Source: Actinacidiphila guanduensis (GTDB taxonomy: Bacteria; Actinomycetota; Actinomycetes; Streptomycetales; Streptomycetaceae). From it: a DNA stretch of 64,000 nucleotides. Under the pieces are notes generated by a model. The model searched no databases and had not been told where the DNA came from. It worked only from the letters and a program-made list of their open reading frames with translations. The stretch spans positions 186,001-250,000 of the forward strand of contig NZ_FNIE01000001.1 of NCBI RefSeq assembly GCF_900103985.1, given 5' to 3'. The stretch's first letter is position 1; every line of letters begins with the position of its first letter. Made by a program: the position numbers and the translations under genes. Positions 5,372 through 12,152 of this stretch are shown here, piece by piece.

Positions 5372-5374
5372 GCT

Positions 5375-5434
5375 GTTACCTTCCTCGGCTCTGCTCCGTC
5401 ACAGGGATGACGGGCCCGGACGGGCACAGGTAAC
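5375..5434. promoter_or_regulatory. Symmetrical face-to-face ECF-type promoter pair
   Basis: Rightward: GTTACC (5375-5380), 15 bases, CCGTC (5396-5400). Leftward: GTTACC (5429-5434 on the minus strand), 15 bases, CCGTC (5409-5413). The two elements are exact mirror images about 5404/5405, so the predicted start sites almost coincide and the two polymerase footprints overlap. The boxes resemble those reported for ECF41 sigma factors (a TGTCACA-like -35 and CGTC at -10). The rightward unit would transcribe the decarboxylase-like gene, the leftward one the sigma factor. Sequence symmetry is observed; use by this sigma factor is inferred. Confidence 0.7.
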
Positions 5435-5453
5435 CGATGAGGGAGCAGGACCG

Positions 5454-5903
5454 ATGGAAGCACGGCTGAAGAACGCGGCGAACCCCGAGGTGATCGCGGC
5501 GATCCAGCAGCTGAACAAGGCGATCTACGGCAGCGGGGCCGACCCGCTGGTGCTGGAGCTGGTCCACCTGCGGGCGAGCCAGATCAACGGCTGCAGCCCG
5601 TGCGTGTACGCCGGGGTGCGCTCGGCGAAGCAGCGCGGGGAGAGCGAGGAGCGGCTGCACAACGTGGTCACCTGGCGCGAGACGCCCTTCTTCAGCGAGG
5701 CGGAGCGGGCGGCGCTGGCGCTGACCGAGGCGGCCACCCGGCTGCAGGACGGCGCGCCGGGCGTGACGGACGAGATCTGGGCGGAGGCCGCCGAGCACTT
5801 CGACGACGAGCAGCTCTCCGGGATCGTCCTGAACATCGCGATCACCAACTTCTTCAACCGGATCAACCGCACGATCCGCGAGCAGGCCGGCAAGACCTGG
5901 TGA
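5454..5903 (+). CDS. Carboxymuconolactone decarboxylase / AhpD-like family protein
   Basis: A 149-residue all-helical protein of the AhpD/CMD superfamily. The diagnostic segment INGCSPCVYAG (about residues 40-50) carries the CxxC pair that acts as a redox couple in AhpD-like peroxidase partners. The histidine normally four residues after the second cysteine is Gly here, so proton relay may differ. LSGIVLNIAITNFFNRIN is the conserved C-terminal helix. ECF41 sigma factors are almost always paired with such a gene (or an oxidoreductase or epimerase), and this one is divergent from the sigma gene behind a symmetrical promoter. ATG at 5454 gives the usual family length. Confidence 0.88.
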   Translation: MEARLKNAANPEVIAAIQQLNKAIYGSGADPLVLELVHLRASQINGCSPCVYAGVRSAKQRGESEERLHNVVTWRETPFFSEAERAALALTEAATRLQDGAPGVTDEIWAEAAEHFDDEQLSGIVLNIAITNFFNRINRTIREQAGKTW

Positions 5904-11271: not shown

Positions 11272-11484
11272 GGGGCGGAATGGCGAGGTACGCGACGACT
11301 GAGGTTGTCACGAGGACGGGCCCCGCGTCGGCTCTGCCGCGTGCCGGGGCCGGTTGTCATGCCGACGGGGTGCGCCCCGTCTCCTGTCGGGGGTCTGCGA
11401 GCCCTCTGCGCTGCCGGCTGTCGAGCGGTCCCGGAATCGCCAGGGCCCCTCCGGGCCGTCGTTTCCCGGAGAGCCGGTGTGCCG

Positions 11485-11575
11485 GGCGGCTGGCGGCTGG
11501 CGACCGGCGGCTGGCGGCTGGCGGCTGGCGGCTGGCGGCTGGCGGCTGGCGGCTGGCGGCTGGCGGCTGGCGGCT
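11485..11575. repeat. Heptanucleotide tandem array (GGCGGCT)13
   Basis: Thirteen contiguous seven-base units occupy exactly 91 bases; twelve are GGCGGCT and the third is GGCGACC. The array ends 10 bases before the TTG start of the next gene, so it forms the immediate leader or promoter region. Seven-base units change frame and spacing when copies are gained or lost. Confidence 0.9.
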
Positions 11576-11585
11576 GGGAGACTAG

Positions 11586-12152
11586 TTGCCTGTGACCCAC
11601 TCCGATCTCGCTCTCCGCATCCATGCCGCCTCTCACCTGACGGGGCAGTTCACGCTCCGGTCGGGACGTACGGCCACGGAGTACTTCGACAAGTACCGGT
11701 TCGAGGCGGACCCCGTCCTGCTGGATGAGATCGCCCGGCGGATGGTCCCTCTGGTGCCCGCCGGCACGCAGGTGCTGGCCGGCCTGGAAATGGGCGGCAT
11801 CCCAGTGGTGACCGCACTCGGCCGGCACACCGGCCTTCCGTGCGCGTTCGTCCGCAAGCAGGCCAAGCCGTACGGCACCTGCCGGCAGGCCGAGGGCGCA
11901 GAGGTGGCGGGCCGGAAAGTGCTGGTCGTCGAGGACGTGGTGACCAGTGGCGGACAGATCGCGCTGTCGGCCGCGGACCTGCGAAACCTGGGCGCGCAGG
12001 TCGATGAGGCGCTGTGCGTGATCGACCGGGAGCAAGGCGGTGGCGAAGCCCTCAAGGCAGCGGGCATCAGCCTGTTGTCACTGCTGACGGCCGAAGACCT
12101 GCGGGCCGCTGCCGCCGGGCCGACCGGGACATCTCGGTGGACTCCGCGGTGA
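11586..12152 (+). CDS. pyrE: Orotate phosphoribosyltransferase-like protein
   Basis: A 188-residue type I phosphoribosyltransferase. YFDKYRFE (33-40) and RKQAKPYGT (90-98) are typical of OPRT, and the PRPP loop VLVVEDVVTSGGQ (112-124) is intact. OPRT joins orotate to PRPP in pyrimidine synthesis. No other pyrimidine gene is nearby, so this is probably a second copy with a salvage or accessory role, possibly in a natural-product pathway. The start is TTG at 11586 (GGGAG five bases upstream) or GTG at 11592. It sits directly behind the heptamer array and in front of transposase relics. Confidence 0.82.
   Translation: MPVTHSDLALRIHAASHLTGQFTLRSGRTATEYFDKYRFEADPVLLDEIARRMVPLVPAGTQVLAGLEMGGIPVVTALGRHTGLPCAFVRKQAKPYGTCRQAEGAEVAGRKVLVVEDVVTSGGQIALSAADLRNLGAQVDEALCVIDREQGGGEALKAAGISLLSLLTAEDLRAAAAGPTGTSRWTPR

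Follow-up and report, generated by a model that had tools for sequence, protein, structure and literature searches.

A mirrored ECF41-type promoter motif between a sigma factor gene and a CMD-like gene: a candidate bidirectional promoter in Actinacidiphila guanduensis

Can one short stretch of DNA serve as the promoter of two divergent genes when both predicted starts fall in the same few base pairs, and, if so, do the two genes rise together or in turn? The question is raised by a locus of Actinacidiphila guanduensis within the window (the whole 64-kb stretch of DNA analysed), where 82 bp separate the ATG of a sigma factor gene (5371, minus strand) from that of a CMD-like gene (5454, plus strand). 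In this interval GTTACC-N15-CCGTC is found on both strands, and all four boxes share one symmetry axis at 5404.5 (5404/5405). The initial annotation described this mirror and proposed two overlapping ECF promoters, one for each gene. The mirror is borne out by the box coordinates and by counts in shuffled and genomic DNA, and the predicted pair of promoters gains support from the boxes and their conservation. The reading preferred here, to which we give a probability of roughly 0.8, is that positions 5375-5434 (60 bp) are a symmetric bidirectional ECF41 promoter from which one sigma factor would transcribe both its own gene and its target. The features that support it are the mirrored boxes, the locked gap between them, the co-variation of the -35 boxes, the upkeep of the outward arm where a partner is present, and the swapping of partners.

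The mirrored element and its two genes

Table 1. Features of the locus, in coordinates of the window.
Feature	Position	Strand	Basis
ECF41/SigJ-like sigma factor, 291 aa	4496..5371	-	Pfam Sigma70_r2 and Sigma70_r4_2, NCBIfam SigJ model, PDB 5xe7
CMD promoter -35 box, GTTACC (preceded by T, giving TGTTACC)	5375..5380	+	sequence; position shared by many relatives
Sigma gene Shine-Dalgarno-like GAGGAAGG; overlaps the CMD -35 box	5379..5386	-	sequence
CMD promoter -10 box, CCGTC (core CGTC)	5396..5400	+	sequence, relatives
8-bp centre separating the two -10 boxes	5401..5408	.	gap mostly 8 or 9 in relatives
Sigma promoter -10 box, CCGTC (core CGTC)	5409..5413	-	sequence, relatives
Hairpin GCCC-GGAC-GGGC (predicted CMD leader; spacer of the sigma promoter)	5414..5425	+	pairing in relatives
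Sigma promoter -35 box, GTTACC	5429..5434	-	sequence, relatives
Shine-Dalgarno-like AGGGAG of the CMD gene	5440..5445	+	sequence
CMD/AhpD-like protein, 149 aa, with CxxC (CSPC)	5454..5903	+	Pfam CMD, NCBIfam ahpD_dom

The window has two matches to GTTACC-N15-CCGTC, both within the mirror; dinucleotide shuffles of the window (n = 100) have a mean of 0.01 matches, and none of the 100 reaches two. The 8.22-Mb genome has four matches, against one for the reversed pattern, and the two that lie outside the window are at loci L003 and L004; one match to the TGTCACC variant is at L116. For the full mirrored pattern the genome has one match and for its reversed control none, and the same holds when the boxes are relaxed to GTYAC/GTRAC and the gap to 4-24. 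At the locus of the sigma factor's closest paralogue in this genome (L118, 54%), the opposite strand carries a site of the GTCAC type. A wider regulon was among the ideas set aside. The conserved -35 core is GTTAC, not GTTACC, with GTTACG in some relatives. The end of the CMD -35 box is separated by 3 bp from the sigma start codon, the box overlaps the sigma ribosome-binding site, and each -35 box is predicted to sit inside the region transcribed from the opposite arm.

Judged by sequence, the two genes are an ECF41 pair of Wecke et al. 2012 (PMC3426412). The sigma protein has the sigma2 and sigma4 domains of the group (Sigma70_r2, 2.1e-12; Sigma70_r4_2, 1.7e-8). As for the SnoaL-like C-terminal extension typical of ECF41, residues 178-256 give a DUF4440 match below the cut-off (E = 0.00082). 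The best NCBIfam models, SigJ and SigX4, run near full length and both score below their cut-offs, the SigJ match covering residues 10-286 and scoring 222.5 bits where the cut-off is 271; the alignment to the best solved relative, SigJ (PDB 5xe7), reaches residue 218 only. The divergent gene encodes a CMD domain (Pfam, 8.3e-17), as expected of an ECF41 neighbour, and the identified neighbours of the sigma gene are a GNAT acetyltransferase, CMD, and an amidase. In its main text, Wecke et al. 2012 gives the ECF41 promoter as TGTCACA-n16-CGTC and reports that, in 55 <ECF< >COE> loci, the motif precedes 36 sigma genes and 41 partner genes (PMC3426412); the partner promoter described here, TGTTACC-n16-CGTC at 5374-5400, is a variant of that motif in identical register. 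Elsewhere in the window, short tandem repeats lie at about 11480-11590, with RLAAGGW / RQPPAAS repeated in the translations of overlapping ORFs, and the ORF just after them (11586-12152) looks phosphoribosyltransferase-like.

ECF promoters usually start about 7 nt past CGTC. This distance places the predicted CMD start at about 5406-5408 (near 5407) and the predicted sigma start at about 5401-5403 (near 5402), in or beside the centre, so that both open complexes would need 5401-5408. In the bidirectional promoter proposed here, the sigma factor encoded to the left (ECF41 type, with a putative C-terminal extension) would direct RNA polymerase to either of the inverted -35/-10 pairs, one orientation giving CMD mRNA rightward and the other the sigma factor's own mRNA leftward, and either orientation would melt a nearly identical centre. 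From the geometry, one polymerase at the centre should exclude a second, and the sigma factor most likely recognises both arms. The outcome would be a fixed ratio of sigma to target transcription and a capped positive feedback.

Conservation, geometry and partners in relatives

Relatives of the sigma factor were collected by a scan of genome contigs, of which the best 80 of at least 522 were kept. The 68 with an intact promoter toward the sigma gene are the base of the comparison (12 are left out), and homologues of CMD, of DoxX_2, of the FAD oxidase and of the L082 protein are scored as partners, any other divergent gene as none; the DoxX_2 and FAD domain names rest on one protein per type. 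Of the 43 loci that have a recognised divergent partner, 42 keep the outward arm intact; of the 25 that have none, 8 do (Fisher exact p = 3.7e-9, for loci that are related and not independent samples). By partner, the arm is intact at 24/24 loci with CMD (the CMD of L070 being a shortened ORF of 90 aa), 16/16 with DoxX_2 of the L054 type, 1/1 with FAD oxidase, and 1/2 of the L082 type. The partners at the 42 intact loci are 24 CMD, 17 DoxX_2, and 1 FAD oxidase, and the mirror is kept throughout: a DoxX_2-like membrane protein replaces CMD opposite the mirror at L029, L031, L037, L038, L048, L050, L054-L057, L059, L063-L065, L067, and L069. The L082 locus, with a GTCAC/GTGAC mirror, comes from a Bryobacteraceae MAG (Acidobacteriota). 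One more distant divergent CMD pair (L080, CMD 42%) has a degenerate mirror and lacks an intact sigma promoter, which places it outside the 43; scored as a failure it would give 42/44. Conservation of one element only had been named beforehand as an outcome that would count against the two promoters. In these relatives both are conserved, the outward one mostly where a divergent target exists.

The geometry of the mirror is narrow. At the 50 loci with both arms intact, searched over gaps of 7-11 and spacers of 16-18, the gap from CGTC to GACG is 8 (28 loci), 9 (21), or 10 (1), and the outward spacer is 17 (47) or 16 (3). A separate search over gaps of 5-14 gave perfect mirrored pairs at 8-10 only. 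Whole-genome searches that allowed any gap from 4 to 24 listed 34 sites in 151 genomes of one family, of which 29 have a gap of 8 or 9. Among the matches listed in 249 genomes of the window's family the figure is 66 of 75, and among those listed for both families together it is 95 of 109; several of the sites at other gaps look like coding sequence. Of 394 genomes sampled across the class, 25, spread over 14 of 138 genera, carry the strict mirror (reversed control 0), as do 6 of 35 genomes of the genus, and it is thus absent from most genomes in both searches. With GTYAC/GTRAC boxes, in a search covering gaps of 8-10 only, another family has it in 83 of 250 genomes. All 30 loci retrieved by pattern in the genus and class searches, the window's own included, adjoin a relative of the sigma factor.

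The two -35 boxes change together, as expected of arms read by one and the same sigma factor. In the 250-genome family, with either GTTAC or GTCAC allowed in each box, they are matched at 63 of 64 distinct sites (40 GTTAC/GTAAC, 23 GTCAC/GTGAC, and 1 mixed); the 64 were taken from 75 among the matches listed, the 11 left out being already in the strict class-wide set, whose pattern forces matched boxes. At gaps of 8 or 9 the boxes are matched at 29/29 sites in the 151-genome family and, among the matches listed, at 61/66 in the window's family (5/66 unmatched), and mixed boxes at other gaps number 3/5 and, again among the matches listed, 1/9, respectively. The two box types may reflect just a few ancestral changes.

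The same boxes also occur in the opposite arrangement. A control search for back-to-back boxes with gaps of 0-30, in the 250-genome family that gave the 83 mirrored genomes, found them in 59 genomes, with 73 sites listed, of which 39 have -35 boxes 11-14 bp apart and 34 fall outside those gaps; the eight sites at gap 7 seem for the most part to be a single conserved coding sequence. The ten loci retrieved (L135-L144, picked from the 39) all adjoin a relative of the sigma factor, with 37-53% identity. Their divergent partners are CMD in five, a DoxX protein (DoxX_2-like) in one, and other genes in the rest, including some that read, from their translations, as beta-lactamase-like and SDR-like. 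Boxes and an adjacent sigma relative are thus common to both forms; in the back-to-back form, unlike the mirror, the -35 boxes point away from each other, and neither the -10 regions nor the starts overlap. These loci speak against the mirror as the sole ECF41 layout and suggest that loci of the ECF41 type favour two layouts or more. They also divide the statement, made in the initial annotation, that divergent ECF promoters are normally separated: it describes the back-to-back loci correctly and fails for the mirrored ones, where the promoters overlap.

Two other readings of the element were weighed. In one, which is unlikely, a single arm is a promoter and the other is conserved as leader (the ribosome-binding site and start-codon context of the sigma gene) or by descent. 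In the outward arm, GTAAC lies between the Shine-Dalgarno sequence of the sigma gene and the ATG, and since this sigma-side box lies in the sigma leader, its conservation could be partly translational; the arm is also kept at 8 of the 25 loci that have no recognised partner (L035, L042, L044-L047, L053, and L061), which means that target expression alone may not explain its upkeep. At six of these eight (L035, L044, L045, L047, L053, and L061) the nearest callable upstream gene points toward the sigma gene, none was called at L042, and L046 gave an ambiguous picture, such genes being called solely from ORF length and third-position G+C. The palindrome at these loci may serve the sigma factor's own control, an antisense or unseen RNA may be made, or the partner may have been lost recently. 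Against conservation of a single promoter arm, the outward arm is broken at 17 of the 25 loci without a partner and nearly always intact with one, it has decayed at L013 and L032 with the sigma arm left intact, and its spacing and box identity track those of the opposite arm.

In the other reading the inverted repeat binds a dimeric regulator and the promoters are elsewhere, an idea suggested by the centre, CGTCAT-N-ATGACG, which is palindromic by itself in many relatives. The boxes, however, fit the ECF41 consensus and its spacing, and the back-to-back loci reverse the palindrome with each -35/-10 pair kept and a peak where the -35 boxes are 11-14 bp apart. Survival of the box pairs when the palindrome is turned inside out is a strong argument against an operator, and chiefly on these loci the operator palindrome was rejected as having the slimmest of chances.

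A hairpin in the predicted CMD leader (Table 1) is partly supported by its pairing in relatives, with statistics that are moderate. Of 87 distinct GTTAC-class leaders, 56 have Watson-Crick pairs at three or more of the four positions; the off-pairs in these 56 are six G-U, one A-C, and seven others. Paired cells number 266 of 348, where 1000 re-dealings give a mean of 246.8 and a maximum of 261. A stem of at least 5 bp can form in 40 of the 111 target leaders, compared with 5.0% of shuffles, and in 1 of the 111 sigma leaders, compared with 1.1% of shuffles; for sites without a retrieved locus the leader orientation was guessed from a purine-rich ribosome-binding site and is ambiguous (difference <2) in 41 of 94, so counts from such sites are less firm than counts from the 47 loci whose orientation is known. 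Against the hairpin, A-C cells (30) outnumber G-U cells (21) over all 111 sites, and only 2 of 24 leaders of the GTCAC class have a stem of at least 5 bp. If real, the hairpin might, as a speculation, set the protein ratio after a symmetric start.

Exclusive occupancy and the expected output

The initial annotation went further and held that mutual exclusion would make the expression of sigma factor and partner alternate. The predicted footprints do overlap fully, and in a simulation of mRNA correlation (four settings with parameters chosen by the authors, the sigma factor fluctuating with a CV of 0.5) exclusivity lowers the correlation relative to independent sites. At a fixed sigma level the exclusive site gives weakly negative values, from -0.12 to -0.02. 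Both arms should, however, need the same holoenzyme, so both outputs would rise jointly with the sigma factor at a set ratio, not alternately. With a fluctuating sigma factor the modelled correlations for the exclusive site are +0.36, +0.32, +0.10, and, in the most saturated setting, -0.04, against +0.56, +0.70, +0.22, and +0.06 for independent sites. Each output of the one-site model is capped at half that of separate sites. In the model, then, exclusion loosens the coupling, and the outputs still do not alternate; it would act as a ratio lock with capped feedback and not as a toggle. Alternation is left unsupported by a one-site model that gives a joint rise at a constant ratio, and we regard it as very improbable.

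Bidirectional promoters of E. coli, as described by Warman et al. 2026, point the same way (PMC12825309). The two sides compete only under substantial activation of one of them: basal activity was too low for competition in the five promoters tested, strong activation of one side was required to repress the other, and noise was lower under interference. These measured promoters agree in kind with the one-site model.

Joining the two layouts to this model leads to a broader proposal, which is possible and is put forward tentatively. The overlapping mirror and the back-to-back form would be two preferred geometries, of which the mirror would have been selected as a single-site, two-way device in its own right. 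Through it a self-activating sigma factor and its target would stay at a constant ratio, with the ceiling on feedback halved; the geometry would be held and partners swapped, and the mirror could outlive them.

Comparison with known systems

In the main text of Wecke et al. 2012, ECF41 sigma factors are described as lacking an anti-sigma partner (PMC3426412), which makes it fair to ask what restrains their feedback. A two-way promoter built on one conserved site, if true, would be a simple hard-wired check on it. The mirrored loci and their back-to-back counterparts form a natural set for probing the effect of overlap. The loci of that study share with the present one an ECF sigma factor with a C-terminal extension (putative here), a CMD neighbour, and a promoter before both genes. 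They differ in the -35 region, which is TGTCACA there and TGTTACC/GGTTACC here, and DoxX_2 partners also occur in the present set. The main text of that study does not mention mirrored, palindromic or bidirectional promoters, or DoxX. A survey of the literature, mostly of titles and the openings of abstracts, found no description of overlapping or mirrored ECF41 promoters, which does not prove that there is none.

The closest likeness is to the bidirectional promoters of E. coli, again as described by Warman et al. 2026 (PMC12825309): both have symmetric DNA, a polymerase that can bind either way, exclusive occupancy, and divergent mRNAs, which are predicted in the present case. Those promoters use the housekeeping sigma factor and a shared -10 element, and their commonest start distances are 18, 10, and 23 bp, whereas the mirror has two separate -10 boxes, 8-9 bp apart in relatives, two -35 boxes, and a predicted start distance of about 5 bp. 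The shared -10 element by which Warman and Grainger define the type is lacking here, the -10 boxes being distinct and 8 bp apart, so the mirror would work like a bidirectional promoter and is not a strict member of the class. In a further difference, one of the two genes at the mirror most likely encodes the sigma factor that reads it. The mirror would thus extend bidirectional promoters from the housekeeping sigma factor to an alternative one, with full -35/-10 pairs on both strands.
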